Under the pieces are notes generated by a model. The model saw only the letters and a program-made list of their open reading frames with translations, was not told the origin of the DNA and did no database searches. Positions 7,301-33,211 of a DNA stretch of 64,000 nt are shown piece after piece (the first letter of the stretch is position 1; each line of letters starts with the position of its first letter). Made by a program: the position numbers and the translations under genes. Location of the stretch: positions 124,001-188,000 of the forward strand of contig WFMF01000110.1 in the NCBI GenBank assembly GCA_011033025.1, in the 5' to 3' direction. This stretch comes from Beroe forskalii (taxonomy: Eukaryota > Ctenophora > Nuda > Beroida > Beroidae).

Positions 7301-9132
7301 CAATACAAGAACCTCATGAAGAACCTACCGATCGTAGATACAAGTCCAGTCTTTGGGGACAGAATTCTCCTCGTGAAGTCTCAACATCTGCCCCATTTCA
7401 CTGATCTTGCTCTGGATGTAAGTCTCACTGAGATGTCCCTCGATAAAATCACTGATCCGTGTTCCCAGCTGGATTATCTGAATCTGGAACTTGCTCAGTC
7501 GCTTCAAATCCCCACCCCAGAATTCCAGTTTCTCTTTGAGCAGCGACGCTTCCTTCTCTATGGCACGTTTAGCGTCCTTGTCAACTTCGTTAGTGGGTGA
7601 TTTGGATTTAGTTTCCTGGAATATCCTCTTCTTCTTGTTCTCGCAGACTGGAGGATCTTCAGCAGTTTCTTTAACCACTTCAGTAGCTTTAACTTCGGCA
7701 GGAGGTTCCTCGGCTTTAACAGGGAGTTCTGGTGGGGTGTTCTTGCTCAAGTTCTGCTCTTCCAATCTCTTCTGCAAGTGAATGCGAGCGTTCGTCAGAG
7801 CGATCTGCTGCTTCTTCCTCTTGATTTCAGCAGCTATTTCTGTCACTGTTCGCTGCTTCCCCGATGGCGTATGCGTTGGAACTGTGATTTTGGCACGTTT
7901 TGGAGCGTGGACAGGAGGCGATGGAGGTCGTGGTGGGGTGGGGGAGGCTGGTTTGGGTTCAGGGGCGGGGAGGACGCCTTCTTAACGGTGAAAGTTAATC
8001 GGGCAGAACTCTTAGTGGGGGCTGACATCTTCTGCTCCTCCTCACTCTTTAGGAAGTTAAACTTCCCGATTTTACCGATACTCCCATCCGTCACATCGAT
8101 AGCTTTCTTCCCGTTAGTTTCACTCTCCAGCTCGATCCTGGGGTTCTTGCGAGGAGCAGCAGCTTTTCTCTGGATCTCCGCCTTCTCTTTCCGCTCCTCC
8201 ATGGCTTTCCTCCGCTCCTCGTTGATAGCTTTGACTTCCTCGCACCGCTTTCTCCACTGCTTCATCGCCACTTCCTGGGACTTCAGGTCCTTGTCGTAAC
8301 ACTCCGGCTTCACCTGGAGATGAGGTATGTTGAAATCCCAGTATTACTGAATGAGGACAATTAAATCTCAGTGGTAAACTTTAGATGCCACGACTTATCG
8401 ATGGGGTTCAATTGATCAGGGAGGGCCTGGCGATGATGACCATTTCATCTAAAAAATACGCCATGGCCAGATGGCCGTGCTCTCCTCCCCCCCCCCCCCC
8501 TCGCCCTCTGCGTTACTCACCCAAGTCACTTCCTGAGTTACAGTGTGCCAGTAGTAGGAGTGCTTGGTGGCCTCGTCCAGACACTCCTTCCACACCACCA
8601 GGTCAGGTTCTTCCGGCAGCTCCTCCATCTTGCTCTGCTCGATATCGTCAATCTCAGCCAGGAAGTTGTCCAGTTCGGAGTCCAGCTCTTCTAACCCGTT
8701 ATCTGGGGAGGAGAGAGTTAGGGGAGGGGGTCAGGGGAGGAGGGAGGGGGAAGAAGAGGGGAGGGAGGGGGAGACAGGGATGAGAGGAGAGTTATTGGGG
8801 AGAGGTCAGGGGGAGAGAGAGGTTGAGTTTGGGGAGGGAGAGAGAGGGGTAGTTAGGGGAGGGAGACAGGGATGTGAGTCCAGCTCTTCTAACCCGTTAT
8901 CTGAGGGAGGGAGGAGTTACTGAGTTAGTAAAGGGGTGAATTAGGGTAGGTGAGGGTGACTGTGGAGTGTCAAGAAAGGGGAATTGGATGGATAATACCA
9001 ATTTCTACGGGGTCTCAACCGAAAATTCTTCCAGTCCGTAATATATATTCAGATGGAGAATGAGTAATGAGTTCCGCGGAAAAAAGGAAACATTGGCTAG
9101 TGGAATATTAAAATCTCACCGAAGTCCGCCAT
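4400..9132 (-). CDS. FNBP4: Formin-binding protein 4 homologue, two WW domains, ten exons
   Basis: Exons, in transcription order: 9120-9132, 8521-8702, 7329-8313, 7058-7137, 6767-6846, 6224-6578, 5903-6017, 5604-5718, 4671-4742, 4400-4516. All introns are GT-AG and phases agree except for one missing base in exon 3. The product, about 704 residues, starts MADFDNGLEELDSEL, has the FNBP4-type DNFLAEIDDIE segment, a first WW domain (WKECLDEATKHSYYW..EVTW), a charged coiled region, a second WW domain (DWTCIYDREEKKYRYTN..QFTHP), then a proline-rich tract with about five KKATPPPP-type repeats. The LVAKW tail resembles the end of human FNBP4. Such WW proteins bind proline-rich ligands including formins, and FNBP4 is found in splicing complexes. 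Exon 3 is open in one frame up to about 7980 and in another from there to 7329; inserting one base restores the frame. The C-terminus is shorter than in vertebrates. Confidence 0.9.
4816..4908. repeat. Inverted repeat inside an FNBP4 intron
   Basis: Arms reading GCACGAGGAATAGGTGG on the left and CCACCTATTCCCCGCACG on the right pair with few mismatches around a loop of about 55 bases. It lies between FNBP4 exons 8 and 9. It is probably a miniature foldback element. Confidence 0.45.
5350..5522 (-). repeat. Candidate tRNA-derived SINE in an FNBP4 intron
   Basis: Read on the minus strand from about 5522, the sequence begins TAGTGTAGTGGTACAGAGT and continues with CCGGGGTTTAGTTCC, the order and spacing of the A and B boxes of a tRNA-derived Pol III promoter. 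An unrelated body follows. No tRNA cloverleaf is complete, so this is a SINE head rather than a tRNA gene. Just beyond it (5519-5560) is a short palindromic TACATTGTACACTGTAC stretch. Confidence 0.45.
8876..8903 (-). repeat. Duplicated 5' edge of FNBP4 exon 2
   Basis: These 28 bases are identical to 8678-8705, which is the acceptor AG plus the first 25 bases of FNBP4 exon 2. The copy lies 198 bp upstream in intron 1, in purine-rich low-complexity sequence, and keeps its acceptor AG. It could act as a decoy acceptor. No donor follows it in a useful place, so it is probably not an exon. Confidence 0.8.
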
Positions 9133-9544
9133 CTCTGATCAAATCTTGTTTTGGAGGAGTGACAACCAGAAATCACAGTCTGACATCTTGCTCTGCTCTC
9201 AAAAGTATCGTCCTGTCCATTCTCAAATGAAGAGTATTTAGCAATCAGTTTACAAAAAACATTAAAACAATCATCATCTGATGTAATAGATGGCCTTAAA
9301 ACATCAAATTTATCATTGAGCTAGAAAACTTCAAGAAATTCGCCAAATTTAGATACTGAGGATGTTCACTTGGTTGGCAGAAATGTTAAACTTCTTTGAA
9401 GATCTAATTGGTATTCAGATGATGTGGCATTGCTTCGCAGACAATGAAATAACTTAAATAACTCGAAACTGTAATCATTTAAAAACAAAACAATAACTAG
9501 ATTCCGGCTCAGAATAAATAAAATTCAGTAAAAATACCAGCAAT

Positions 9545-10000
9545 CTACAATCTTCTTCCTCTTCGTCCGCCCTTCCTCCTCGTGGAGTCTGTGGGGATTG
9601 GAGTGACATCCTCAATCCTTCCAATCTTCATTCCTGACCGAGCAAGAGCCCTCAGGGCGTTCTGGGCACCTGGTCCGGGGGTCTTGGACTTGTTGCCTCC
9701 AGTAGCCCTCAGCCTGATGTGCAGTGCTGAGATCTTCAGCGCTCTGCATCGCTCAGCCACATCCTGGGCGGCCAACATAGCAGCGTAGGGGGAAGACTCG
9801 TCACGGTCAGCCTTGACCTTCATTCCTCCGGTCACACGGACCAGGGTTTCCTTGCCGGACAGATCGGTGATGTGCACGAAGGTGTCGTTGAAAGAAGCGA
9901 AGATGTGGGCGACTCCGAACACTTCCTCGCCTTCCTTGACCTGGGGGCCGAGGGAAATGTTCGTTTCCTCCTTCGCAACCTTTCCTTTTCTGGGGGCCAT
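9545..10000 (-). CDS. RPS14: 40S ribosomal protein S14 (uS11)
   Basis: This is an intronless 151-codon frame starting [12 protein letters not shown] and ending [11 protein letters not shown], matching the family's usual length. It is near-identical to animal RPS14 through [37 protein letters not shown] and [19 protein letters not shown]. The protein binds 18S rRNA on the small-subunit platform and is needed for late 40S maturation. An ATG two codons upstream is also in frame; the start is placed at MAPRK because that is the family N-terminus. The FNBP4 start lies 413 bp downstream on the same strand. Lack of introns could mean a retrocopy, but the frame is perfect and strongly conserved. Confidence 0.98.
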
Positions 10001-11157: not shown

Positions 11158-14100
11158 TCATCTGCTGTAACTACTCGAGCTCCTTTTCCTCCTGCTCCTG
11201 TCACGTGATCTGCTCCTATCACGTGACCTCTTCCTGTCACGTGACTTGCTTCTGCTGCTACTAGACGAGCTGCTACTGCTGCTGCTACTACTGCTAGATC
11301 TGCGTTTCCTGTCCCGAGAACTCCTCTTAGACCGCTTCGGCGAACGACTTCTCGAACGACTTCGTTGGTCGTTTTTCCGGGATCTCTCCCGAGAGCTTCG
11401 TCGACGATTGGACGACTGACTGCCGGACACTCGGCGACTTCGTTCACGACTCCTACTCCGACGAGAGGAGCTCTGTCGGCTCCGGTCACGACTTTTGCTG
11501 TGAGATCGGGTGTTTAGCGATCTGCTGTCAGAGATTTTCCGGCTTCTCTCTCGACTCTTTGATCTGCTCCGCGAAGCAGGGCGTTTGATGGTTCTTTCTT
11601 TGGATCTGAGGGAATGTTTCAGGTTAATTTCAGGGTGTACCTTCGCACAGCTGAAGCCTGAAGATGAGAACACGAATTCAGATATTTTATTTTTTGCACT
11701 AAGTATCCTAAATTGGAACTTTGAGAACGGGTAGATGATACCTGCTCCGAGATACGCTCTTCGACTTTTCTCTGCTCTTTTCATCTTTCTTTTTCGATGC
11801 ATCGTCATCTTTTTCATCACCCGAACTGGTTAAGGGTTGCAAACATAAATGAACTGAATTCCAAATTTTGGCGGAAAAATTCAGGATTCAGTCAATAATA
11901 AGAGATCAATTCATAATGGGAAAGGGCTACATAATTTTTAGTGATGCTTTAATTCTCAATTCTTCATCATGAAAGAATAGTATCCACAAAACTCATGAAT
12001 AGATGTAAAAAAGTAACAAGATGGTCTATGATAACAGTGAGATGCATAGATTTAAAAGTAACGAGAGAGTTACCTGTGTAAGGGGGATACCTTACCTCTC
12101 CTCTTCACTGTCGTCGAGGGCGTATCTCGACATATCCTCCTCCTCCCCTGACTCCTCCTCAGCAGTGGGGAGCGCTGAGGAACCCCCACCGCCCACACTT
12201 GGAGCGGTGCCAGAAGTGGGGGTTATTGCCGAGGTGGAGTTCTTACGGCTCTTCTTCAGACGACCGAACTGGGGAGATTGGGGTTGTGGATTTGTGAACT
12301 GCCCAACGTTTATCCAGATTTGGGGAAATATTTAAAGAGGTTGGGTGCAATGGCTGAAGCCCCCGAAAGAGAAATGCGAAGTAATCAGGAAATAGTCATT
12401 ATTATTGTTCAAGAGAAGGTCTCAACTCACATCGTCGTACTCGTCGTCACTCTCCACGTTGTCCTTATACTCGACCACGCCCCTCTCATTGAACCCGCCC
12501 CCTGCTCCCGTCCTTTCCTCCACCTTCCCAAACTTGGGGGCGTGGCAGATGTTGCAATCTGAAATATTTTGATGCTTATAATGTTTAAATCTACCTTTTA
12601 AGGTATTTAATAAGCACAGTTGTCCAAAACAGGGGGTCAAGATATCATAGCCAAATTGTGCCTATTTTTGGTCAACTGTAAATCGTTTTAAACTTATTTG
12701 TAACCCAAAAAATAGTTTCCAACACTTTTTGGCACTCAAAAACCTCCTAAAATATTTTTTTCGTCGAATTTTCGGGTATTTTTGATTCCCCAAAAAGCAC
12801 ACCTGGGTTCAAATTATTTAACACAAGGGTAGATATTCAATCTCATGCGGTATAAAAATGCTTTAAAGAGAAAGCCAATAGCCTAACGATGCCAGAACTT
12901 TTTGAATTTCAAAAAAATATTGATCACAAGCAAAGTTATGACAATTTTAACACCAAAAATCAGGAAAAATTCCAAAAAAATGTTGCTTTTCTATACTTGA
13001 TAGCCTTAAATAGTCGATTGAGCCAATCACATCGATATCATAGTCTCAAATGACTTATTTAGCTCTGCTGTGACTATTTCTAAAGTATTCAATCATTTTT
13101 GACATCATTTGGCTTACAAATTTCACAAAAATGCAAATTTTTGGCCTCCAGATTTCTTGAAAAATTGTTAAAAATCGGCAATTTTTTCGTTTAAAAAATA
13201 ATCTTCTGAAAAAGCCTCAAAAAACCCCAACTAGGTCTTTACAGCATCTGTTAGAGTATGAATCAAGCTTTCAAATGGTACTAAGGAATAAGGCGCCCCA
13301 TGGCGCCCCAACAACGATATGTGGTAGTTTATGCCCAAAAAATTCCAAAAAATAGGACCAAAAATTAAAAAAATCCTAAAAATTTGGTATAAAACATATT
13401 AAAAAACGGATTTTTGCATCTTATTCAACAGAAAATGAACTTTCTGGAGCAGTTATCATTACAGCACAGTTTATCAACAATTTCCAGCTATTTTAAGCCT
13501 TTCAAGTGATATTTTGACTGCCAAAAATGAAAAAAATTGACAGCCTAAATTTTCTGCATTTTCAGCAGATCATAACTTTTTGCTTATAACAGATTTTTAA
13601 TTACAGTTCTTTGCCTAAGATATCATGGTGGACAACTGTGATAAGGAAAGCGGGATTGAGTGATAGGTTGAAATGCTGCCCAGCAGATGGCTGATAGCTG
13701 CAGCTGACGAAGTACCCAGAAAGATTTCAAAAGGAAAACAACAAAGTCAAAGCCTCACAACTATTTACTTTGCACACTACTCACCAGCTCTCCTTGCCCA
13801 GTTGACATTCCCACAGGTGGAGCACTGCCAGTCCTCCGCAGAGAACAGTCCCTTGCTCTTCTCAGCCATGTGTTTCCCGATACTCAGCCCTCCCAGCTTT
13901 ACCTTAGACTTGTTGAGGGGCTTCGGGGCTTTGCAACGGTTACACTCAACTCGCCGGGCGTAGTTGATGTTCCCACAGCTGGGGGAGATGCAGGTGTTAG
14001 GAAGTCGTGACAAATAGAATCGAGAAAGAACATTCAGAACAATGTACATGTGCCACAGAATTAGAAGCAAGCAATTTCTAGAACCAAGCCAATCCTAGAG

Positions 14101-14233
14101 TGCGATATTACCGGGTTAATTGCACTGATATCCCACAGCCTTCTTCCTCGCAGGTCCAATCCCCTTCCGACATCTTGAAACCAGGGGGTCCTCCTCCACC
14201 AGACCCATTCCTGGTCCTCTCAACCTCATCCAT
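11158..14233 (-). CDS. ZRANB2: ZRANB2-like splicing factor: two RanBP2 zinc fingers and an RS domain
   Basis: Exons in transcription order: 14112-14233, 13785-13978, 12431-12558, 12096-12268, 11742-11825, 11158-11605. The product, about 382 residues, has a first RanBP2 finger (SEGDWTCEEEGCG..NINYARRVECNRC), the linker EKSKGLFSA, a second finger (DWQCSTCGNVNWARRADCNIC), the diagnostic block KVEERTGAGGGFNERG, an acidic region and a long Ser/Arg domain ending in poly-Ser and SRDRSR repeats. Family members bind GGU-containing RNA through the fingers and affect splice-site choice in the nucleus. The first intron is odd. The only in-frame GT donor (14111) inserts nine residues into finger 1, and a 9-bp direct repeat lies at the two expected finger boundaries. 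The other introns are normal GT-AG. Confidence 0.94.
12615..13640. mobile_element. Non-autonomous DNA transposon with CAC-type ends (Transib-like)
   Basis: The element lies in ZRANB2 intron 2. It has perfect 12-bp terminal inverted repeats, CACAGTTGTCCA at 12615-12626 and its complement at 13629-13640, flanked by the 5-bp direct repeat ATAAG (12610-12614 and 13641-13645). The 1026-bp interior is AT-rich and codes for nothing. Ends beginning CAC with a 5-bp target duplication are the hallmark of Transib elements, relatives of the RAG recombinase source. A different superfamily is possible because no transposase is present. Confidence 0.7.
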
Positions 14234-14483
14234 GCTATAAAAGAAGGGAGTTAGTGTGCACTAAATAGAGGAAAATTAGACAAGTAAATTAAAGGAATCA
14301 ATTGATTTTATGCTATCTGAGCCCAGTTTAGGGAATTGGCTATAATTTAATCTGTCATTTGAAATCGTATAAAGTAGATCATAGAAAATTGATTAATCGG
14401 GGACAGAGTGCAAGTAAAAAACTGAATAGATCGTTCACAATGAAACATCAAATTTTCAATAAATAAAAAGTCCTAAAACCAAT

Positions 14484-14973
14484 TTATTTCCCGTTCCTCT
14501 TGCATGACCCGAGTTCTGTCTTCTTCTTGCCGCTGACCTTCTTCTTCCTGTTCTTCAGTTCCTTCCTCTGTCTCGTCCTCCTGTCTTGTCCTTCTTGGTC
14601 GGGGTAACAATTTTGAAAGTTCTGAAAATGTGTATTCAATCCGTATGAGGGAAGAAAGATTCAAGGAAAATCGGACAAACATTGAAAGTTGAACATAGAA
14701 TAAACTTTGACAACACAGACTAAACATCAAGTAAATGAATCAATTAAACATAAACTTATTGAAATTCAATTGTAAAAGTATAAGATAATTTTAAGTATAA
14801 GTCAAATATCAACAATTTTGAATATTTTGTAAAACAATTAAATTTTTGAAATTATAGGGGTTGAAAACAAGATATCGACAACCATTTGCCGTCTGCAACG
14901 GGCGGGATTTGTTAGATAATGGTCTGCTCAGGATTCGGTTCGTGATGAACTTTCGCGTTCTGATCGTTGCCAT
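14484..14973 (-). pseudogene. RPS24: Broken copy of ribosomal protein S24 (eS24)
   Basis: The 5' part (14922-14973) encodes MATIRTRKFITNRILS, matching the RPS24 N-terminus. After a 31-bp interruption bounded by GCAGAC repeats, 14869-14896 encodes RQMVVDIL in the family's next position. The 3' part (14484-14621, behind a good acceptor TTTTCAG) encodes RRTRQRKELKNRKKKVSG and a lysine-rich tail ending at TAA, which matches the C-terminus. The central core of roughly 70 residues is missing between 14622 and 14868, which reads as AT-rich non-coding sequence. As an essential single-copy ribosomal gene it should have an intact version elsewhere; otherwise the assembly has lost sequence here. Confidence 0.75.
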
Positions 14974-15029
14974 GTTGGACTACTCAGGTCGCACAAGCCA
15001 ATTTAACTGAGTTAATATCGATTTGAAAT

Positions 15030-15870
15030 TAGAAACTTTAATTCGATAAATAGCGTAAGTTCTATTTCTCTGCATTTGATTCAATCCGTGCTAAATGAAG
15101 GAAGGTACAAGGAAAATCGGAAACCAAATATTTTTCTCAGTTCGCGTTTTTTCCAAAACTTGACCAAACCCGACTAAACTTCGGCTAAATGATTGATATT
15201 TTGCATAAACTTTTTACGTGAAATTCAGCAATTTTTGGATTTTGGCCAAAAATTTTTGTATAAAATAATTTTTCAAAAATCCGGCTCCATTTGTATCTGA
15301 ATAGTTTCACGTAAAAAAGAATTATGCAAAATATCAATCGTACAGTTATAAGTTTTGAGTAAAGTGCACTTTGAAAAAACGCGAACTGAGAAAATGGCGA
15401 TTTTGTGGTTTTTAGAGGTTTTTGGGACCAAATCGCCATTTTTTAGCAGCAATCAAGCCCAAACTTGCAGAGAATACATAATTCAACGCTATTTATCGAA
15501 TTGTTGGTTTCATTTAAAAATATCGATATTTGGCCAAGTTATGGCCAGAATTGCTTAGACGCGCGTATGCCCATATATGGCATACGTTTTGGCCATAACT
15601 CAGCCATTTTTGGAGATATCGACTTCAAATTTTTTATGGTAACTCAGGGACCATTATCTATCGATTGCACACCTCAAATCCCGCCCAAGTTGCTTTTTGA
15701 AAAAATATGCCCATTTGTGCCCATTTTGGGCATGGCGCCACGGCGGGCGCCAGTGGGTCTGGGGGGTACCAAACCTGGCAAAAAGTTGGCCCATGGGGTA
15801 TACCTTTGGGTCAACCGTTATCTCAGAAACGTGTTTTCCCAAAAATTTGGCTTGAACCCCCCCTTATGTA
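15030..15870. mobile_element. Foldback element related to the palindrome at 55-56.5 kb
   Basis: Inverted arms pair around a centre near 15265: TGATATTTTGCATAAAC at about 15190 with its complement near 15335, CTCAGTTCGCGTTTT near 15137 with 15370-15395, and CGATAAATAGCG near 15045 with 15490-15500. The right flank continues to 15870 with sequence homologous to the arms at 55255-55840 and 56030-56430, including the GGCATGGCGCCACGGCGG and ATCTATCGATTGCACACC blocks and the terminal C-run. The left arm is shorter, so it is a truncated copy. Open frames inside it are fortuitous. Confidence 0.7.
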
Positions 15871-16159
15871 ACGTTATTCAATTCTATCAATATTTGAACG
15901 CGAGTAAAGAGTTGATTCAAAAACATTGATCATCCCTGAAAAGCACTAGGATCAGATTATCCTCCGCATTTACACACATTTACAAGCATATCTACTGGAA
16001 TACAAGCAATACGAAATTCCGCTTGATTACTGTCTTTCATTGCAGTCAACCGACGTACATACTCTCTGCCAAGTCTGATTACTGAACTGACATTTCTGAG
16101 CAAGGTAAAACACATTTTCCAACAATAAACCAGGTTTTTGGATCTTCTGACACAAGACA

Positions 16160-18497
16160 TCACGAGAATGCATCGAGCTTGGCAATGTCAATAGAAAGGG
16201 TTTTCCTCTGGTCCAGCAGAGACTTGAAGCGGTCTTGCAGGACCTTTTCCCTTTCTGTCTGTCTCTGCACGTGCTCCTCAAGCTTCTGAAGTCTGTAAGG
16301 GATGATGCTCTGCTCAGCATTCCGCAGATTCTTGTACGTGACATCCTCGACTGAAACCGTGTCCAGTTGCTCGTTTATCTCCTCTATCTGCTTGGATAAC
16401 GCCATGGCTTTTAGCTTGGTAACCTCCCAGAATGACTTTCAGCTTTTTCTCGATCTTAGCAGCCTGCTTTGCCTCCTTCGTCATGAGTTGTCGGTTAACA
16501 TCCAGGGCCTTTTCCAGGTACTCGATCCTATCCTTCTTACTGGACATGGAGACCCGAGTGTACTTGCTCTGCGAGACATTGAACATCACCTCTCTATAAC
16601 ACTCTTCCCACACTTGAGAGTAGTCCTCCAGGTTCAGATCTCTGTGATTCATCCCTGTCTTCACTGTTTCTACTTCCTTCTTCAGCAACTCCCGCGCTTT
16701 CTGAAGGTCCTCATCAGAGTAAATAGGCAGATCAGGGACAGAGCTGGAGGGAGGGGGTTTGTTGCCGATGGGATGCTTCTTGGAGTCGTGTTTCAGGAGG
16801 GCCACCATCGTCTCCTTGATCTTCTCCTCTGCTGTTTGGAGGGCAGTTAGTTGGAAATCCCCCAGGTTGGCTCGTAAGATGGTGGTGTTGATTCCACAGG
16901 GACGTGGAAGAGCTCGCTGGATAACCTGACTTTCTCTCTTCCACTTCTCCTGGGCAGCTTTCCTCCGCTCCTCGGCTGTCATTTCGTCCAACACCTCCTG
17001 ATCTTCTACTTCATTTGATTTGACTTCCGGTTTCTCTGTTTCTTCGTCTTCAGGGAGAACAATCTCAAAGTCATTCTGAGGTTTGGGGAGGCTGGCAAGA
17101 CTTTCCTTGAGTGAGAGTTTAGAAACACCGTTTAACATGGGGGTGTCACCCCCAGTCCCTGTGTTGATGCTCAGCTGATCTCTGACAGACATGGGGGTCT
17201 GAGAACCGTTGACACTGGGGGTTGCTCCATCGAACTCACTGGCGTTGGCTGGTGTCCCCATCAGAGTGTTTGGGGTAGCCACTACTTTGCTCGCCGGGGT
17301 TGAGCCCCCAAAGTCCACTTCCTTGACATTTAGAGGGGTGTTGACACCCCCTTTGAGAGGGGTTTCCACGTTGGTAAGAGCCAGCATATTCTGAGCCTCC
17401 TCCATGATAGAGGCACCCGTGGCAGGGGTTCTGGGGGTCCTTAGTCCTGCACTCCCTGCAATAGCTGGCGTGTTGAAAGTGTAGTTAGAGAGGAGCATGT
17501 TGGAGGACCCTGACCCAGCAGCGTTAGCCTCAGCAGCAATGTTCTCACTGGTCCGTCCCATCTTAACCACCTCTTCCAGTTCTGACTCTGAGATCTGAGG
17601 GGCAGGAAGGACTAACTTAGACCTTTTCTTGGCGGGGTTTATCATGTTCATCTGGTTAGAGTTGTCTGACTGCCCCGGGGCATCCCCCTCCTGTCGCTTT
17701 GATATCTTATCCTTGTCCTTGTGTCTGTTCCTCTGCTCCTCCTCATCCCGCCTCTTCTCATCCAGCTCATGCAGCCGTAACTTCTTGTAGTTAGGGTCTG
17801 TCACGTCGATACTCTCACTCGAAGTGTCGTAGAATCCTAGCGCTGGTTTCTTCTCAAACGGTACCTCAGCATTGTAGTCAATGAGTCCCTTTCTCAGCCT
17901 TTTCTTCCGAACTTCAATCCCAGCAGCTTGCAGCTCTCGCCTCTTTTGAAGCGTTGCCAGCCGTCTGGCCTCCTCCAGCTGCTTCTCCCTAGCTTTACGT
18001 TTAGCTTTCTTACCCTGAGTGTTGGCAAGTCTGGCTCTTGCCTCCGCAAGCATCTCTTTCTCGTCCTCATCCATGTCAATAGGGTCCGGGCGGGCGGGTT
18101 TAGTCTCCGGGCACGGGTCTATCTCGCCAGGTCTCAGCCTCTTGGCGTCATCATCCACCTCCCCATCCTTCTTCTGGGCCTGCATGAGCAGGTAGTCGTA
18201 GTGCTCCAGACACTGGGCTGCAGTCCGGCCTACCAGGGGGGCGATGGTGCGCCACTGGGTGGGCATCAGCTTGGCAAGATGAAGTAGCTTCTCCTCCTCC
18301 TCCCGAGACCACTCCGTCTTCTTGATGCTAGGATCCAGCCACTCATACCACCGGGCTTTGCACTGCTTGGCAGACTTCCGGTGGAGAAGTGAGGCAATAC
18401 GAGACCACTGGTTCTTACCGTACTTCATGACGGCAGCCTTGAGAATCTCATCCTCGGTGTTCTTCCAGACACCGCCCTTGATATTAACACGAGGCAT
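16160..18497 (-). CDS. CDC5L: CDC5L / Cef1 spliceosome component, Myb-type; one-base frameshift
   Basis: This is an intronless gene with about 778 codons (human protein 802). Residues 1-107 hold two Myb repeats (KGGVWKNTEDEILKAAVMKY, then SREEEEKLLHLAKLMPTQW) nearly identical to human CDC5L. They are followed by the conserved PGEIDPCPETKPARPDPIDM block, a basic helix (GKKAKRKAREKQLEEARR), FEKKPALGFYDTS, a low-complexity TP-rich middle and a C-terminal coiled coil. The protein is a core subunit of the Prp19/NTC complex that activates the spliceosome. The frame from 18497 breaks at an A-run (T4 on plus, 16409-16412) just after LGGYQAK. Removing one A joins it to the frame starting AMALSKQIEEI, which ends at 16160 exactly as the family does. 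A sequencing error or very recent mutation is more likely than an old pseudogene. Confidence 0.97.
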
Positions 18498-19242
18498 CCT
18501 GGTACAAGGTTAAGTGGTTAAAAACAAGTGCACATCAGGATCACAGTAAAAAATATGCATGAAATTAATCAAATCCATCTGAAAAATATAATAAAATAAT
18601 GAAGCAATTTTTTCTTATGTGACACAATATCAGGTTTTTATAAGTTATGATGTAGCATTCTCAAAAAACTTTAAATGGCAGAAATCATAAAAGAAAATCT
18701 GCAATAATTTACAAGAACAATTTAACCACTAAATATCAATAATCAATTCACAATTTTGCACATAACAGTAGCCATTTATCAGGAAGAATGCGAGGGTTTC
18801 GAACTGCAATCAAATTCTCCTCTTAGGCTCATACAGACTGAGGCCGAGCACTTTCAACATTATTTCATGAAGAAAAAAGTATTTCAACAGCATACTTGAA
18901 GAGACTGAGACGCAAATGTCCTGAGAATGATAATTGATGAAGATCAATTATGGAAATTCGTCTTCAGCTCCCTTAATTATTTGGTATTTAGAAGAATTAA
19001 CGTTAAGAAGCAACTGCCATAATTCAACAAGAATTTGTCAAATTATCAGACAAAACAAAGATTTAACTTCACCTTTTTCTGCGCTTCTGATTCAAGGTAA
19101 TAATAAAGATAAATCCATCGATCATGGAAGATAAAACTCCTAACTGTTCCCCATGACACACCGCATATATTTTCTCACATCGAATTATTAACAATATAAT
19201 CGCATGCAAGTTTTTAGTGTACGACTGACCGCTCTCCTCCGT
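18498..19242. other. Spacer between CDC5L and SGTA
   Basis: AT-rich, with no recognisable exon, repeat or hairpin. It should hold the CDC5L 5' region and the SGTA 3' UTR. Confidence 0.6.
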
Positions 19243-22200: not shown

Positions 22201-25200
22201 TAGGAGGGGCTGGTCATCACTCGTCAAGGAAGGCGTGGTAGGAGTTGAAGCTGGTCATCACTCGTCAAGGAAGGCGTGGTAGGAGTAGGAGGGGCTGGTC
22301 ATCACTCGTCAAGGAAGGCGTGGTAGGAGCGGTCAACAAAAGCAAAGAATAATGACTCCACCCGCAGTGGGGGGCTTTATATACGTGTCTGTTGACACCC
22401 AATCAAACATGACGAATGCGCATTCCACCCATATGACGTTGACACCATTCGTAGTTCATGACGTATGACGAATATTGATTCGTACGCATTCCACATTCCA
22501 TCCCATATGACGTTGACACCATTCGTATCTGATGACGTATGGCGAATATCAAGAATTTTACAAGAATTTTACAAGAATTTTAAAATATAATTTGTGACAA
22601 AAGCAATGTCATTCAAATCACACACAAGTCAGTAGCTTATGTTAAACGGAGATGATATTGTGATTTGGTGATTTGGTGATGTGTTATGGTGATGGAATTG
22701 ATTTGATGCGGAGTCATCAATGTACTGATTCGAGGAAGAAAAAAGGATACAAAAAGGGGTTCACAATTTGAAATACTTGAAGGATCTAGGTGAGATTGGG
22801 GACCATAAAGCGGGCACGTACCAAAGAGCCAACAGAGAGATGCTGAAGAGAAATAAGAACTGATGAGAGCTGATGTAACAGGAGTGATGGTGCAGGAGGA
22901 GCAAAGCAACAAGAACTCACGAAGACCTGGAGAAGGAGAATGAGAAAAAGAAGAAATGGATAGGGTTGATGTTGTCCCCCGGCCTACGCATGCCCCACGC
23001 ATGGGACACAGTTAAGCCCAAATCGGTACGCAGCCAGGTGAGCATCGGAGGGGCACCCGCTTCCCACACATATGTAGCAGGTGGCTGGATCACTACCAGC
23101 GCAAGTCGGAAACATCCCCTCTTTCCACTCAGCCATCTGGGATCCAAACTGAGTGGGACACTTAGACAACACCCAGGCCCTAAGAGATGAGGACTTAGAA
23201 GATGAAAAGAGCAGACAAGGCTGGACAAACAAAGAGCAGGAAGCGGAAGGAGGGAAAGACTGAGGAGAGAGAGATTGAAGGTGGAACCACAGGAGATCTA
23301 AGATAAGCCTTCACCTTGTTGAGACAGTTCCTTTTTGTACTTTAGAATGCTCTTGTACATAATTTTGATTGCCCTGGTCGTGATTTGAATATGTCTCACA
23401 AGTGCATCATTGTTTGATTCAGCAGGATCTGTTGGAGTTGTCCTGGCTATCTGAATGCCGTTGAGAGGAGTATCACCATGGTTGATGTCAAGACTGTTGA
23501 TCAATGAAGCCATCTTTTGCCTTTGTGATGCTGCTAGCGGACAATTGGCAAGGATGTGTTCTTCGTCTTCAATGGCTGAGATGTCGATTCCTTTTGAAGA
23601 GCAGAAGTCACAGGTCCTTTCTGCTTTAGGAATGTTTTTGTGCCTACCAGTTTCAATATTGAGTTTGTGAGCACTACAGCGGATCCTTGCAGTAAATTTC
23701 CTGTCCTCAAAATTGCGGGCATGGTCAAGGTAATGCTCCCACGTGATCTTGTCTTTGACCTCTCTGTAAAATGAGAGCCTGCTTGATTGCTCCAAAGTAA
23801 ATCTCCATGCCTCAGTGAAATGATCCTGAAGGTTCTTGACCAGTAACACGGGAGACGCAGCTTCAGCAAGATGAGTGGCCGAAACAGCTGTCAGTTGATG
23901 CTGATTATTGCCGTCTGTCGCAAAACTTTCGATGATAGACTTCATGTTGGAGTACCATAATAAGCCAAGATTTACCTGTTCATTGAATGCTGCCTTGGCA
24001 AGGTTTGAATCTTCCATCTCAGCCAGTCTCTTGAAGTATTTGACGCAGAGCTTCAGACTATCGATGAGAAGTGGAAATCTGCCAGTTTCACCCCAGGCAG
24101 CAGAGTTGGATGCATTGCGCCTTATACCTAGCAGATACTTGAGGTGGCGTAGATGAACCTGCTCAAAGCGCATCTTGGCAATTTTGGAGACGCAATTGTT
24201 GATGTTACAGTCACGGTCAAAGCAGGAGATAAGGTGTTTCACAACAGGTCGGCTAGGAAGCCAGACTTGGCACCCGTAGGTTAGGATGGGTGTGACAAGG
24301 GAACCAAAGAGTTGCTGTAGGTTCTTGGGATCCACGTATCTCCTGTCAACAGTGTTCCTAAGACTGAAGTATGCCCCGAGGCCTTTCTTGTAAAGCGAGT
24401 CTTCGGCCTGGCTGAAGTTCCCTTTGTTGCTGATGATAATACCCAGGTAGCAGTAGGAGGTAACAAGCTCGATCTCATCTCCATTAATGATCGGCCTCCA
24501 GGTGGCACTTGGAGGATAGAGTCCATTCATAACCATGAACTTAGTTTTAGAGATATTAACTTCGAGACCCCAGGCATTGCAGTAGTTCTCAATAACATTA
24601 AGTTGTTTTTGAAGTGACTGGGTATCTAAAGCCAGGATAACAAGGTCATCAGCCCATGCAAGATGTGATATTTTCAGACCAGATAAGGTGGGGCAGTTGA
24701 CGTCCAATTCGTTGAGCAACTTGGAAAGCTTGAGAAAATAGACTTTGAAGAGTTCAGGGCTAAGAGGGTGACCTTGTTCTGTCCCTTTGGAAATATCAAA
24801 GCTTTTGCTGATCTTGTTGTTGATTTTGATGTTTCCAGAAGAGTAGCTGTACATGCTTTTGATGATGTTAAAGAAACCGCCATTTATTCCATAGCAGGCA
24901 AGCTTGAAGAGCAATGCTTGACGGCAGACAAGATCAAAGGCTTTTCTCAGGTCAATGAAGACAGCATAGACCTTTTGCTTGACTCTTTTGTACTTTTCCA
25001 TCAGTGTTAACAATGTAAAAATATGATCATTACACTGGCTACCCTTCTTGAAGCCTGCTTGGTTAGGAGGGTCGGGAAAGTTTGAGTCACGATGGTTTAT
25101 CAAGCGACTCAGAAGCATCAGGGAAAGGAGTTTTCCAACACAGCTACAAACAGCTATAGCCCTGTAGTTGTCAGGGTCAGAGGTACAGCCCTTCTTGTGA

Positions 25201-28200
25201 AGCGGGGTAATGACACTTTGGCTCCAGAAGTAGACACCCAGTTTGAGACAGATGTTGAAAAGATTGAGCAGAAGATGGAGCATTTCAGCATTGAGTGCCT
25301 TGATGATCTCATTGCTGATGTGGTCGAATGAAGATGCTTTTCCTGATTTGAGGCTGCTAATGGCGTTTTCCAGTTCATCCATTGTGAATGGTTTGTTGAG
25401 CTCTTCATCAGGTAGACTGGAGTTGGCAGTGTCTACGGCATCATTGAGCAGAGCCTGCTTAGTCAGTTGATCAACAGTCGGGTGCTTGTCAGAATAGAGC
25501 TGAGCATAGAACTTCTGAAAGTTATCAAGGTGTTCGGATTCGTCAAGTTTGATGTCTTTTTGCTTGTATTTTTTGAGCTTCTTGAAGTCTCTCCAGGACA
25601 ATACCTTTCCTGTTTTGATTTTTTCATTCAGTTTACGAATGAACTTATCTTTTTTAGACTCCACAATGGCTCGATAATCTTTGACATTGAGACGATGTCG
25701 ATCTTTTATACTTGTGTTATCAGGATTGTTGTCCATCACACGAATAGATCGTTTCAAAAGTCTCCTGGCTGTATGACAGGCAGGGTCAAACCATGCTTCA
25801 TGCTTTGGCTTACTCTTATCACTTTGTTTGGGAATATCAAAGCTTTCACCAGCAACTGAATTGATAAGGGACAAGATATCCTTATTGAGAGATTCAGCTT
25901 CATTACTGCTGATGTTATCTGATGTAAGCCGTTCGTTGAGGGTTTCTATCTGGGCTAGGATTGATTGAGTATTGAGAATGTTCTGAAACTTGTCAAGACC
26001 TTCAGGAGTGATCTTGTATTTGAAAGGAGCAGGCTCGAAGTGAGTAGGAGCTTTTGTTGGTGTTATCACCGGGCTATGATTCCAAAGATGAAGGATAACA
26101 GGGCTATGATCTGAAAAGAGAGTGTGACTAGCTACCACAAGATTCCTGATACGATGTGTGAAGCTACCAGAGCTGACAAAAAGGTCAACAACGCTGTTTC
26201 CATTCCACTTGAAGCATGTGTACTTTCCAGCACAGTCACCAAGAGTGCGACCGTTAAGTACTATAAGGTTCTGGGATCCGACAAGGTCAAGGAGAAGCTT
26301 CTTGTGACTGTTAGTGCCTTGATCGGAGCTAGATCTGTGGATAGAGACAGGCGCAGATTCATCGATGAAGTCTGCGCTATTTGAATTGTCAGCATCAGGG
26401 TGGAAGTCGGATCTGCTAAGAGAAGGATCGTTGTAGCCTGAAGCATCACCAATTCTGGCATTGAGGTCACCACAGAGCAGTATTTCGTCATCTGGTTGTT
26501 CACGAAGACTGCTGATAGTGGTGTGCAGATAGTCAAAATTCTGTGAGGAGTCATGCTTTACCCCTTTAGTGACACTGTTGGAAGGAGGGATGTAGCAATT
26601 CACAACAAAGGTCCGTATTTTAGTGGCTGGGTTATAAAACTTGACTACAACTAAATTTGCTGATGTGGTCTTATCATTGGGTAACTTGATGAGCTTGCAA
26701 TGATGGAGCAAGTCATTACTTATCAAGGTTGTTACTCCACCACCTTTGCCCTGTTTGCGGAGGTTACTGAATGCTTTGTAGCCCTCGATGTTTACTTCTG
26801 ATACGGTTTCTTGGAGGCAGACAATCTTATGAGTCAGCAGGATTTTCGTGAACTCAGGATCGTCTGATTTTTGCCCAAGGATGCCGCTGGCGTTGGCAAT
26901 GTTCCAGGTGATGATAGATGGGACATTATCCATGGAGTGAAGAAGCAGAAAGAAGAGTGTGGATCAAGGAAAGCTGACAGATGCAGAAAAGGGGATGGGT
27001 GAGACAGAGAAAGGGAGCAGCAAAGAGAAGATCGACCAGAGAGGAGAGAGCACGAAAAAGCTGAGGAGAGACTGAGGTGGAATTTGACAGAAAAAGATCA
27101 ACTGGAGAGGAAAGCTTGATGGAGACTGGTTCTGAAGTTGCCCATGATGACTTTGATTCCTCTTTGGTTGAGATGGATAGTGCCGTCCCTGAACATGTAA
27201 TGATAAGGGGACCCAGTTCCATTGGCAAAGAAGTTCCTGTATATTGATGTGCATCCACTGAGCTGACGCTATAATTAAAATTGTTCTTTGCTGACAACTA
27301 GAAAGCAACACAACCAAAGGGGCTGGGAAGTATTACACACGTCTTCATAATTAAAAACATACACTCAGTTTTTTTTATAAGAAACTTATTGAAATCCTAG
27401 GCTACAAGTTTCTTATTTTTTCACGATTTTGAGCCTAAAAGTTTCTTAATCGGTTTCTTAATTCTACATACCGACATACCGTACGAAAAATGTCTACGAA
27501 ATTTCCAACATAGGAACCTACTGTGTAGACTGTAGCTGAGGATTAGAATCGAACCTTCTGATATTTTCAGTTAAATTATACACTTTTAAGCATGTACCTA
27601 TCTTTAAAGATTTGTGCAGCTGTATACAATAATGTTCAGGGATCTTCATCAAATGTTCTTCCAAAAAAGTTTGAAATTTTGAAATTTAGATAAATTATCT
27701 AAATCCTATAATGCTTGGAACTTTTGGAAATAGATATGGAACTGTAATAGTGTCCTGTCGCAACAACAATTTCTAAATTTCTGTTTTGTGCTTTAGTATC
27801 TGGCATGTTACTTTAAACCGAAAAATCATGAAAGATTCATTTTCTAAATTTCTATTCTATATTATGATCAATTATCACATATCCAGTGTAATACTGTAAT
27901 AGAAGTTCAATAGAAGCACTAGATTAGTTTCGGAATGTTCACAATCAAAAATGGGGGTCTGGGGCGCAGCCCCAGAAGCCAGACGTATCATGTTAAAAGA
28001 ATTTCAGTTGCAATAGGATTTTATACACAAATTTCAAAATTCTAGGCTAGAAGTTTCTTAATTTCTTAATTGTAAATCAGTGAAGTTTCTTAATTTTTCC
28101 GAAATTCTAGGCTAAGTTTCTTAAATTTTCGGAAATCCTAGGCTAAGTTTCTTATAGACAGTTTCTTATAAAAAAAACTGAGTGTAATTATAAAGTACAA

Positions 28201-28559
28201 TCCTCATAGGAAACAGGGGATGGCCATGGAGACATATCGAATAAAAGTTACGGGAAATGGAGCTATGTGACAGTGGTCGGGTCTTTTTACCCACTTTTTG
28301 ACGTATTGCTTTCGACCTAGACCACACATACCAGCTACGTCAAGAATGTAACTAACGTGTTAATTTGTAACATTCTATACGCACGATTTTCCCGCCATAC
28401 CATCAATCAACTGAAAACGAAGAATCATCGTAACAATAAAAACCTTTTCAAACCTGCCATACTTTCGGCTGCTTCCCCAGTCACCACTTTCTTCTCAATA
28501 AGGTCATGTAGGTGCTGCAACACTGCATAGGAGAGCCGGTCCTGTTGAACCTTGGACAT
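19243..28559 (-). CDS. SGTA: Small glutamine-rich TPR co-chaperone (SGTA/SGT)
   Basis: Exons in transcription order: 28454-28559, 20756-20935, about 20432-20565, 19957 to about 20170-20198, 19599-19881, and about 19243-19354. The product, about 342 residues, starts MSKVQQDRLSYAVLQHLHDL (the SGTA dimerisation helix). It then has TPR repeats (GNELMKQNKYEEAVEKYTEA, YYCNRAAAYSKLNRHDL, YSKAFARMGFAYLSLNKLKE), a Met/Gly/Gln-rich region (ILNNPAFMNMAQQFMQDPN) and a tail (QNPDMMDQLRRQF) matching the human C-terminus. The TPRs bind the tails of Hsp70/Hsp90; the family sorts hydrophobic proteins to the BAG6/GET pathway. Intron 1 is 7.5 kb and holds a LINE, two tandem arrays and a MITE. Two junctions are abnormal: exons 3 and 4 share a 28-bp duplicated edge without a usable GT donor, and the final acceptor reads TTTCAA instead of TTTCAG. 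Confidence 0.92.
20285..20440. repeat. 43-bp minisatellite in SGTA intron 3
   Basis: Slightly more than three units repeat with a 43-bp period (AGATGGTC ends at 20340, 20383 and 20426). The array lies between the two copies of the duplicated exon edge (20171-20198 and 20432-20459). Its last unit runs directly into the exon copy. On the minus strand each unit carries a TTTTTCAG acceptor-like and a CCTGTCTTAG donor-like motif. Confidence 0.8.
21060..21435. repeat. Palindromic GTATACAC tandem array
   Basis: About 20 units resembling ACACTATACACGGTGTAT form a self-complementary array in SGTA intron 1. Open frames rich in Tyr/Val/Thr run through both strands because of the repeat and are not genes. 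The array can fold into cruciforms or long hairpins. Confidence 0.85.
21434..22330. repeat. 44-bp minisatellite, about 21 copies
   Basis: The core CTCGTCAAGGAAGGCGTGG recurs with spacing of about 41-48 bp, usually 44, with the variable linker TAGTAGTAGGAGGGGCTGGT. It lies directly next to the GTATACAC array in SGTA intron 1. There is no palindromic repeat or unique spacer, so it is not a CRISPR array. Confidence 0.9.
22400..22555. repeat. Two-copy repeat rich in TGACG
   Basis: The block CATATGACGTTGACACCATTC and the sequence after it, to GACGTATGACGAATAT, occurs twice about 70 bp apart, with few changes. TGACGT is the half or core of a CRE element, but the region is within an intron and regulatory activity is unproven. 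Confidence 0.6.
22960..27300 (-). mobile_element. LINE with intact ORF2 (endonuclease plus reverse transcriptase)
   Basis: The 1211-residue frame at 23298-26933 starts MDNVPSIITWNIANASG, with an APE-type endonuclease (CLQETV near residue 40, LLCGDLNARIG near 160, FSDHSPVIL near 280), a reverse transcriptase (FIDLRKAFDLV near 645, GTEQGHPLSPELF near 710, AWADDLVILA near 755) and a C-terminal Cys-His motif (CDFC..EEHILANC). There is no stop or frameshift, so it may be recently active. Flanks at 26934-27300 (pyrimidine-rich on the sense strand) and 22960-23297 look like its UTRs. It has no ORF1 that I can see. The clade is uncertain: the PLSP and GDLNAR signatures differ from the CR1/L2-type copies elsewhere in the window. 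It lies in SGTA intron 1, same orientation. Confidence 0.9.
27361..28185. mobile_element. MITE with 26-bp perfect ends at a TA site (Tc1/mariner-like)
   Basis: The termini at 27361-27386 (ACACTCAGTTTTTTTT then ATAAGAAACT) and 28160-28185 are perfect inverted complements. A TA dinucleotide at each end (27360-27361 and 28185-28186) is the expected Tc1/mariner target duplication. Subterminal CTAGGCTA..AGTTTCTTA motifs repeat several times on both sides. A short GC-rich hairpin (27954-27982, GGGTCTGGGG) sits inside. No transposase is encoded. Confidence 0.8.
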
Positions 28560-29500: not shown

Positions 29501-29504
29501 ATCC

Positions 29505-30710
29505 CGCCCTCACTGCTGCTTGCAGTTCCTCATGAAGCTGCTGTTCCTGCCCCCTCCCCTAACAAGCCCCCCTGTTCCCCCCTGGGGGAGGGGGAGATGC
29601 CCCCTGCAGAATGTTACCCCTCACTGCTGCTTACAGTTCCTCAAGAAGCTGCTGTTCCTGCCCCCTCCCTAACAAGCCCCCTGTTCCCCCTGGGGAAGGG
29701 GAGATGTCCCCCTGCAGAATGTTACCCTCACTGCTGCTTACAGTTCCTCATGAAGCTGCTGTTCCTGCCCCCCTCCCCTAACAAGCCCCCTGTTCCCCCT
29801 GGGGGAGGGGGAAATAAACCCCCATTAAACCCCCTGCAGAATGTTACCCTCACTGCTGCTTACAGTTCCTCATGAAGCTGCTGTTCCTGCCCCCTCCCCT
29901 AACAAAAATGCCCCCCTGTTTTTGAAATGGTGCCCCTGGGGGAGGGGGAGATGTCCCCCTGCAGAATGTTACCCCTCACTGCTGCTTACAGTTCCTCATG
30001 AAGCTGCTGTTCCTGCCCCCTCCCCTAACAAAAAAGCCCCTGTTCCCCCCCTGAAACAAAAATGGGGAGAAAAAAAATGTCCCCATGCAGAATGTTACAA
30101 AAAATGGTTCCCCTCACTGCTGCTTACAGTTTGTTTCCTTATGAAGCTGCTGTTCCTGCCCCTCCCCTAACAAGCCCCCTGTTCCCCCCTGGGGAAGGAG
30201 GGGAGATGTTTCCCCTCACTGCTGCTTACAGTTCCTTGAAGCCCCCTCCCCTCTGCCCCCTGTTCCCCCTGGTTCGCAGAATGAAGCTGCTGTTCTGCCC
30301 CTCCCCCTAACAAGCCCCCCTGTTCCCCCCTGGGGGAAGGGGAGATGTCCCCCTGCAGAATGTTACCCCTCACTGCTGCTTACAGTTCCTCATGAAGCTG
30401 CTGTTCCTGCCCCCCTCCCCTAACAAGCCCCCCTGTTCCCCCCTGGGGGAGGGGGAGATGCCCCCTGCAGAATGTTACCCCTCACTGCTGCTTACAGTTC
30501 CTCATGAAGCTGCTGTTCCTGCCCCCCTCCCCTAACAAGCCCCCTGTTCCCCCCTGGGGGAGGGGGAGATGTCCTCTTGCAGATTGTTACTCCTCACTGC
30601 TGCTTACAGTTCCTCATGAAGCTGCTGTTCCTGCCCCCCTCCCCTAACAAGCCCCCCTGTTCCCCCCTGGGGGAGGGGGAGATGTCCCCCTGCAGAATGT
30701 TTCCCCCTGA
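29505..30710 (-). repeat. 113-bp tandem array derived from the STK11 terminal exon
   Basis: About ten units of about 113 bp (CACTGCTGCTTACAG starts near 29511, 29622, 29729, 29853, 29977, 30114, 30207, 30370, 30483 and 30595) repeat the last coding segment of STK11. Read on minus, intact units encode the proline/glycine-rich stretch and the CKQQ-stop end. Only the copy at 30594 is joined to the kinase frame; the others lie in its 3' UTR. Units at 29897-30130 carry poly-A/T insertions such as TTTTTGAAATGG that look like assembly noise. Confidence 0.9.
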
Positions 30711-33211
30711 AGACAACACATCCTCAGAGCTGGCGTGTAGAGAGCACGCCATGGCGGGTGAGGTGGGGTGTGTGGCGTGCAGGTCAGAGGTGGAGAGGTG
30801 CACTTCTTTCAGGTACTCGATCAGCGTCGATTCCTGGGGAGAAAATGGGAGTCATTCTGGTGGTTTTGATGCACTGTTTGATAGTATAGTGGAAATCGAG
30901 TCAAGTATCGCGTTAAAATCGAGTGCAAATCGGGTATCGAGGTTTCACGAAGCTTCAAAAAGCGAACAATACAAGAAAACGCTACATTCTCCCACCTCTG
31001 CTACTGAGTTAGGTATGGGCACCTCGTCATAGCTCCTATTGTGTTTCTTCTGTACCCAGGGATGGTGTAAACACTCGTCTGTAGTGGCCCTCTCCTTGTA
31101 ATCATACGTCAGCATCCTCCGCAACAGTTCCTGAAGATAATGGTTTTCTTTTGAAGATGGCGCAGACCCAATCAAACATGTTGGATTTTTCTAGGACTTC
31201 AATAATTGAAAAAGCCTCTAGTTTTCGTCTTTTCAGACAAATCTGAGAATCATAAATCAAATTAGAAAATTGCAGGCAATGATGCGATCATCTCTGGCGC
31301 CCCCAAAGGAAAAATCATACCTGCAGCGACTCAGACAAGTAGTCCGGAATGTCAAACGTCCCCTCTCCTATCTTCTTGTACAACTTAAACACATTGTCTG
31401 CGTTGAAAGGGTAGTTCCCGGTCACGAAGTTGTAGAGACTGACCCCAGCAGACCACACGTCTAGCTTCTGTCCGGAGAAGATGTCAGCCCCTATGGCAAT
31501 CTCTGGGGCAATGAACATGGGGGCACCTTGGCTACCTTTCACTGTGTCCAGTTGGTTGTAGGGGTCTAGTTGCTCGGCCACGCCGAAGTCACATATCTTT
31601 ACCTGGTGAGGTGGTGGTGGTGTGCTTTTGTTGAGATTGGAAAAGTTCAGGGATAACAGGATTTGAGATCTCTCTAAAATCATCTAGACAAGTCTGAATT
31701 CAAGAAACAAATATTCAATGATATTTCTGGTATTTGTGACACAAAACGCAGAGAAAAGGGAGAAAAGGACCTGATCAGAGTTAAGTGATCTCTTTCTCTG
31801 ACTTACGGTGTGCGAAGTGTCGAGTAGGAGGTTTGCAGGCTTGATGTCCTTGTGAATGACATGTCTAGAGTGAAGGAAGTCTAGCCCTTGCAGTGTTTGG
31901 TGAATGTACTTGTGGGCCTGCCACGTCGGGAACTTGTGTTCTTCCTGTGTTGTCCAACATGTCCTGACATGGGTTGTGAAAACATAGGCGAGTAAATTAA
32001 ATATATCATTTTGATACCGCCTTAATTATTATACATCGACAAAACAGAAAATCACCCTGTTTTGGGTATTTTAGAAGAAAATTGAAAACATTCCCGATCA
32101 CTGTTGTCAAGGATCAAAAGATTAAAATACCTGTAGTGAACAGCAGCAGAAGGTCATGAAGAGATAGGTCTTATCTTTCTCAGCTTTGAAGTGTACGTCA
32201 TACAGCTCTATTACATTGTCATGGGGTGTCTTCGATAACTTCTGAAATGAGTCACTCGTCACACCACGGAAAAGCTAAATTCTCAGATAGGAAAATATTC
32301 TTATTTTGATTTTTTCTTCCATCTTCCTCCCCAATAATCAGTCTAAATAATCCAATGATTTACCTGGAGCAGCGCTATTTCTCTCCGCATGTTCTCCTCC
32401 CCTGAAGGTATCTTCTTCAGCTTAGACTTCTTCATGATCTTTACAGCAGCTCGTCTGATACTCTCAGTGTCCAGAGCTTCCTTTACCTTGAAGTAGAGGG
32501 TTAATATGCCATTTTATAAGTGAAGTCAGTAATTGCTCATGCTTCAATCTAATAATTAATCATTAGGAATTGAGAATAGTTGAAACATCTGCACAATTTA
32601 AAAAGTAACTGAAGACTATGATTGAGATATCGCGCGGAACTGAGAAAGAATCCCATATTATTTCATGGGATATCAAATTCTGTAGATCGAAATTTTGGGG
32701 GTTCGAAAATATGGGAATTTTTGTGAAAGAAGGCAGATAAATTATATCCCCATTGTACCTCTCCTCACCCTAGCATAGCTGCCTTCCCCCAGCATGTCTC
32801 CCAGGAGGTACCTCCCCACGAACTTGGGAACTCTTTCCACCGTCTCATACACGATATCAGCACTCGGCACCTGGTCGGGGGGATTATAAACTTCAACATG
32901 AAATCAAAAACTTTAGATGCACTCCAAAGTCCATTATCCCCGTTCTGATGGTTATAATTTTCGAAGAACTGCTCAGTGCTTATCCCCGATCCCCCCATCC
33001 TCGATCTTCCCAGTTCCATCCACTCTCCGACCTCTTCCCACTCACCTTGTGGAATATCACCTCACCATACTCCCCTCTTCCCACTCACCTTGTGGAATAT
33101 CACCTCACCATACTCCCCATCTTCCTCCCCCTCTTCGTCCCATGGGTCCGATGCTCCGAGGTTGAAGTGAACTACGTCATCCGTGAGGTGTGAGGTAGGG
33201 GAGAGGGTCAT
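30594..33211 (-). CDS. STK11: LKB1 serine/threonine kinase (STK11) with farnesylation tail
   Basis: Exons in transcription order: 33089-33211, 32769-32870, 32364-32486, 32131-32241, 31807-31944 (perhaps to 31963), 31321-31602, 30996-31130, 30594-30833. The product has about 417 residues (human 433). It shows a P-loop ([13 protein letters not shown], residues 64-75), VAIK-type lysine 91, the catalytic loop [13 protein letters not shown] (Asp about 186), DFG (Asp about 204), an APE-like IAPEIA, and the C-terminal CAAX box CKQQ, identical to human. LKB1 with STRAD and MO25 phosphorylates AMPK-family kinases and controls polarity and energy use. In exon 5 the DMLDN segment expected just before QEEHKF is present in the DNA (31945-31963) but out of frame by one base. 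Either a frameshift or a shifted acceptor has removed it. The 3' edge of exon 1, with its donor, is duplicated 43 bp downstream (33046). Confidence 0.94.
33035..33120 (-). repeat. 43-bp tandem duplication of the STK11 exon 1 / intron boundary
   Basis: The segment running from GGGAGTATGGTGAGG through the donor GTGAGTGGGAAGAG is present twice, with donors after 33089 and 33046. Only the upstream donor keeps frame; reading through to the second meets a stop codon. Both donors look equally strong, so mis-splicing is possible. Confidence 0.85.

Follow-up and report, generated by a model that had tools for sequence, protein, structure and literature searches.

Gene content of the window

The window analysed here is a stretch of 64,000 nucleotides from the ctenophore Beroe forskalii (positions 124,001 to 188,000 of contig WFMF01000110.1, referred to below as C111, in an assembly of 216 Mb and 1134 contigs), and our subject is a set of exon edges in it that are repeated in or beside the adjoining intron. 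An earlier reading of this DNA (the original prediction) had proposed that such duplications recur from gene to gene through a local mechanism. When its open reading frames are read, the window appears as a compact animal-like gene cluster, mostly on the minus strand, whose members we take to be FNBP4, an RPS14-like gene, ZRANB2, an RPS24 fragment, CDC5L, SGTA, STK11, RPL32 and an SMC5-like gene. These names come from the earlier reading, or from the open frames and what is known of the human proteins; profile-based identity is confined to the WW domain of FNBP4 and the kinase matches at STK11. Altogether 26 introns (52 junctions) were placed by visual inspection, guided by open frames and the splice consensus, with the introns of the SMC5-like gene, RPS14 and RPL32 left out.

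Duplicated exon edges at STK11, FNBP4 and SGTA

Four duplications in the window touch an exon-intron junction, and these, like the FNBP4 spacer and the STK11 and SGTA exon-edge arrays described below, lie on the minus strand. In STK11, the end of exon 1 and its donor form a perfect 43-bp tandem (33031-33116), just as had been described, with the copy at 33074-33116 proximal to the exon and the other copy in intron 1. Each unit consists of 28 nt of exon and 15 nt of intron, both copies carry AAG/GTGAGT, and splicing from the inner donor would keep 43 nt in the transcript and lead to a stop codon. The same gene ends in an array of about 112-bp units in 11 pieces (29507-30706) spanning the C-terminal coding tail and the stop; ten copies of the tail stretch carry CKQQ and the stop codon, and a search of the genome found no match to the array elsewhere. 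The array proposed for the last exon therefore exists, but its unit is coding tail plus stop and contains no splice boundary. The CKQQ tail resembles the farnesylation box of human LKB1.

In FNBP4, the acceptor edge of exon 2 (8678-8705; CAG followed by 25 nt of exon, with the WW-domain exon following) is repeated inside intron 1 at 8876-8903, and the 28 identical base pairs at a distance of 198 bp agree with the earlier description. The spacer between the copies (8706-8875) is polypyrimidine and minisatellite-like, with 25-bp units at 8811-8866, and splicing to the outer acceptor would bring in a stop codon within the 198-nt insert. A further acceptor of this gene, overlooked in the earlier reading, carries a 25-bp tandem (6018-6067, 88%) that is restricted to the intron side and has both copies ending in AG.

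The repeat at SGTA exons 3 and 4 was likewise recovered, its length being corrected from 28 to 29 bp with two mismatches; copy 1 is the end of exon 3 (20432-20460) and copy 2 the start of exon 4 (20171-20199). The core comprises 26 bp with one mismatch (20174-20199 versus 20435-20460), 261 bp apart; the frame into which copy 2 reads presumably belongs to the conserved TPR of SGTA. Between the copies lies a 43-bp array of 3.2 units (20299-20435), each with an acceptor-like TTTTCAG/TTTTCCAG motif. Elsewhere in the gene, intron 1 (20949-28454) reaches about 7.5 kb, the remaining 25 placed introns measuring 75-1226 bp, and it encloses a long reverse-transcriptase-like open reading frame (23298-26963) as well as two large minisatellites.

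Exon-edge arrays beyond the window

Pairs of the nine-letter donor word AAGGTGAGT at a distance of 25-54 bp number 221 in the genome, and the 100 of them that were listed fall into 22 distinct loci, all of which were read (21 fetched loci and STK11); the locus counts given below refer to this set. Fifteen of these loci were read as starting at a coding-looking exon end and two at an opposite-strand acceptor; one is uncertain (L066) and four show no exon (L053, L055, L058 and L061), L058 lying entirely within its array with the edge not reached. At the 15 donor-edge loci the copied unit is made up of the last 9-36 nt of the exon, with mismatches, and the start of the intron, and at L060 and L064 the arrays sit at an acceptor edge with the exon on the other strand, their unit combining a donor-like word with opposite-strand acceptor-like sequence. 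The classification is backed by the longest open frames ending at the first donor word, since these span 40-107 codons at the 15 loci as against 16-28 at the four negatives, within the limits set by the stretch fetched. When 16 fetched exon-edge exons were compared with Pfam, seven matched. Four passed the curated cut-off (RPL5, a carboxyl transferase, Ric8 and an M1 peptidase) and three fell short of it (another M1 peptidase, ERM and WD40); the other nine had no match at E 0.01.

At only 4 of the 15 donor loci is the spacing to the following exact copy of the donor word divisible by three, as expected if the inner copies are unused as coding sequence. At the RPL5 locus (L059; C198:134745-135130), the exon end and donor together form an array whose listing contains 15 consecutive pairs spaced about 36 bp. 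As to scale, extrapolation from the 22 loci in 100 listed pairs to all 221 would suggest about 48 pair loci for this one donor word, itself a small share of all donors. Loci anchored on kinase matches enter none of our counts: 5 of 133 matches were fetched and their repeats listed, and exons were read only in L041, which is without an annotated junction.

Insertion and assembly error as alternative sources

Exon edges could also be copied, and introns created, by a process targeted to borders, whether introner-like insertion or break repair with long target duplications, and the original prediction had named insertion with long target duplications next to tandem duplication. In FNBP4 and SGTA a longer insert is indeed flanked by short direct repeats, and in SGTA copy 2 is open into the following exon, in keeping with a gained intron, whereas copy 1 meets a stop. 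Against such a process, searches of the genome returned only the self-match for the SGTA insert and for the STK11 exon 1 tandem and only low-complexity matches, at 69-73%, for the FNBP4 insert, and head-to-tail arrays make up the majority of the other cases read. Dispersed insertion of the introner type was discarded as an explanation of SGTA and STK11 exon 1 and, simple-sequence matches aside, of FNBP4. We consider a border-targeted process very improbable; of the local mechanism originally proposed, tandem duplication at exon borders is retained and insertion with long target duplications is not, there being no dispersed matches in these searches.

Alternatively, the copies might be artefacts of the assembly, through stutter or the mis-joining of alleles. 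By eye, open frames are broken within otherwise continuous homology in CDC5L (16160-18509, near 16.4 kb), in FNBP4 (7325-8343, near 7.98 kb) and in the L041 kinase, which suggests uncorrected small indels in the assembly. The genome search found no second allele of the FNBP4, SGTA or STK11 exon 1 loci that would allow comparison, and a comparable duplication in amphioxus, that of BflGb6, seemed aberrantly assembled in the genome draft of that animal (PMC3087553). Artefact is made less likely by the divergence of the copies (83-96% in most comparisons), by units that differ between genes and by the length of the RPL5 array, and we regard it as improbable.

Exon edges against the duplication background

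The most probable alternative is pure coincidence, in which the density of random local duplications by itself accounts for how often exon edges are struck, with no special mechanism or tolerance. Local direct repeats are abundant on C111, where 120 clusters in a sample of 264 kb place 13.5% of bases in copies; dinucleotide shuffles, one each for the window and 20 stretches, yielded no repeats passing the thresholds. Within the window, 4 of the 52 junctions lie inside repeat copies (five at the laxest of four settings) as against 5.3-5.9 expected by rotation (P 0.62-0.70), a null that is inflated by long arrays and a repeat set whose thresholds exclude the FNBP4 tandem at 6018. Small clusters touch a junction in 4 of 13 cases, compared with 1.65 expected when placed anywhere (P 0.07) or 2.17 when some intergenic and CDC5L stretches are excluded (P 0.16); these 13 were listed by hand, with the FNBP4 tandem at 6018 included and with three large arrays (21055-22329, counted as two parts, and 29507-30706) and a pair 446 bp apart (14651-15121) omitted. 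The window by itself does not prove junction enrichment. An ab initio exon finder run on the 264 kb predicted only 34 exons and was judged too insensitive to enter any count. Among the 28 strong donor-like words of the C111 sample, an identical word reappears within 400 bp in just one instance, that of the two STK11 copies, and open frames at these words do not separate real donors from chance.

Genome-wide counts of splice words point both ways, and they are heavy-tailed, a few large arrays dominating them. In favour of coincidence, AAGGTGAGT recurs at 25-54 bp at 221 of 1940 places (11.4%), below its reversed control (786/4118), and the acceptor-like TTTTCAG, with pairs at 2738 of 89116, stands at about 5.0 times random expectation, close to the 5.4 times of its reversed sequence (794 of 46167); when the listed donor-word loci are taken as units, the word is found again within 300 bp at 6 of 87 and 4 of 76. 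On the other hand, a second donor word, CAGGTAAGT, recurs at 237 of 1734 places (13.7%) as against 19 of 1365 for its reverse, and both donor words exceed the average complex 9-mer, for which the figures are 4.1% (264-kb sample) and 2.4% (genic part of the window). When each listed place is taken singly, the donor word is repeated within 300 bp at 19 of 100 and 15 of 87, compared with 12.4% and 9.6% of random complex 9-mers. Moreover, 17 of the 22 loci with donor-word pairs were read as exon edges despite the 1159-2351 chance occurrences of AAGGTGAGT predicted by a Markov model of the C111 sample, a proportion that is not convertible to an enrichment without the share of real donors among single words.

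We give coincidence serious weight, somewhat short of an even chance. The idea of recurrent exon-edge duplication survives in that the repeats are real, tandem and found well beyond the window, but the counts establish neither targeting of edges nor an excess at them.

Proposed origin and tolerance of the duplications

We consider that these loci are probably "mirages", tandem duplications of minisatellite type founded by a unit that lies across an exon-intron junction. Through slippage or unequal exchange a tandem unit of some 25-50 bp, or more, would arise, its breakpoints falling on either side of the splice site. One complete junction would stay beside the intact exon, leaving splicing and protein unchanged, and the duplication would thereby be tolerated; duplications internal to a coding exon would mostly shift the frame and be removed by selection. 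The surplus copies would then sit in the intron, drift, and sometimes grow into arrays. The seeming preference for exon edges may thus come from selection and not from targeting.

What is observed directly is that units are duplicated, that they sit at exon edges, that other genes show the pattern too, and that the distance between copies gives no sign of a frame constraint. Use of the exon-proximal splice site fits these data because use of the inner site would give a stop in STK11 and FNBP4 and because the spacing of copies ignores the frame. Tolerance of junction duplications is supported indirectly, by this indifference of copy spacing to the reading frame and by the completeness of the exon-proximal site. 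The original wording, that the mechanism "acts on or is tolerated at" exon borders, can accordingly be kept for tolerance, in this indirect way, but not for a border-specific process, given that the window tests were non-significant and the word counts ran in both directions.

Several points weigh against the mirage interpretation. The classification of the 22 loci was made by eye and was unblinded. At L047, L054 and L065 just 6-8 exon letters match beyond AAG, and the non-exon array L055 shows 7; at L050 the exon may end one copy before the first exact word. In FNBP4 exon 2 and in SGTA it is the edges that are repeated and not the whole 198 or 261 bp, which requires later expansion or decay of the middle. 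At SGTA, moreover, no GT-AG pair excises the insert in register: the candidate donors at 20451 and 20433 both leave phase 2, the edge acceptor at 20188 starts phase 0, and the only pairs that stay in frame use acceptors inside the insert (20339, 20315 and 20306), of which 20315 would keep about 42 extra codons in the TPR. Either splicing at SGTA is unusual or the letters or assembly are wrong there; small assembly errors are a live possibility, given that reading frames are interrupted in CDC5L, FNBP4 and the L041 kinase. Creation of a new intron is a possibility for SGTA intron 3 only.

Weaker candidates and other repeats

The repeat predicted for ZRANB2 exons 1 and 2 exists as the 9-mer GCTGTGGGA, present at 14131-14139 in exon 1 and at 13971-13979 (minus strand) at the edge of exon 2, but its significance is borderline for an item picked post hoc. 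When donor and acceptor regions of the 26 introns were compared, with 496 mismatched donor/acceptor pairs as the null, a match of at least 9 had P 0.002 per intron; 0.05 were expected among the 26 and three were observed, in ZRANB2 intron 1 (9), FNBP4 intron 6 (9) and SGTA intron 3 (18). The 6-bp version claimed for the RPS24 copy is too short and carries no weight. Fragments resembling the N- and C-terminus of RPS24 were seen by eye at 14450-14980, with the middle lacking, possibly a relic or a broken gene. Further along the window, a tandem array with a 143-bp unit in 2.6 copies (54525-54900) lies between retroelement-like open reading frames.

Implications and comparison with known systems

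A broader scenario, which we put forward tentatively and consider rather unlikely as a whole, is that this genome multiplies its own splice sites: junction-crossing duplications would have arisen at hundreds to thousands of introns, donors would be preferential founders of minisatellites, and a few arrays, with SGTA intron 3 as a candidate, would be becoming introns. Recurrence at RPL5, ERM-like, Ric8-like, M1 peptidase, carboxyl transferase, WD40 and STK11 exons would allow a many-locus test of how a choice is made among near-identical splice sites, and the same loci could be used to ask whether arrays feed intron gain. Should rates equal the background, the exon-edge arrays would be a plain by-product of a duplication-prone genome.

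Duplicated exon edges have also been described in other organisms. In a potato RdRp gene, an intron was gained via tandem duplication across an intron-exon boundary (PMC4974935); as in FNBP4, the duplication crosses the boundary and leaves the upstream one of two exon-start copies within the intron, whereas a new intron and donor were reported there and none is demonstrated here. Some novel introns of Drosophila have been ascribed to duplicated proto-splice sites (PMC2891723). Duplicated coding sequence flanks the intron in these cases as it does in SGTA, but SGTA as sequenced does not offer a GT and an AG in matching register and departs from this model; for the same reason it departs from intron gain by tandem duplication of AGGT (Rogers), both of its copies reading AAG/TTGAA. 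Introners are marked by many similar inserts at different genes, and the genome search revealed none for SGTA or STK11 exon 1 and only low-complexity matches for FNBP4.

The closest parallel is with the "mirages" of amphioxus, minisatellite-like tandem units across an intron-exon boundary in the globin genes BflGb6 and BflGb9 (PMC3087553), cited also for Adh3 (in PMC3087553) and for TnC and PGBD5 (in PMC3902484) and proposed as a source of new introns. In both animals tandem units lie at donor or acceptor edges, many with AG/GT signals, beside the authentic exon. Duplication of an exon part together with the adjoining intron part and its splice site is found here at the STK11 donor, the FNBP4 exon 2 acceptor and 15 of the 22 loci (STK11 included, as judged by eye); the FNBP4 tandem at 6018 repeats the intron side only, and SGTA does not fit clearly. 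A minisatellite-like tandem structure is evident in STK11, with two copies, and at the RPL5 locus, and partly in FNBP4 exon 2 and SGTA. Both kinds of boundary are affected, donors in STK11 and 14 fetched loci and acceptors twice in FNBP4 and at L060 and L064. Copy spacing is mostly 25-50 bp here, compared with 10-72 bp in Adh3 and 150-160 bp in the globins. Unlike the amphioxus mirages, reported for a handful of genes in these papers (PMC3087553, PMC3902484), those described here come from many unrelated genes traced with one donor word. The kind of pattern is thus already familiar from amphioxus; what would be new is its presence, and its breadth, in this genome, which is not that of a cephalochordate.

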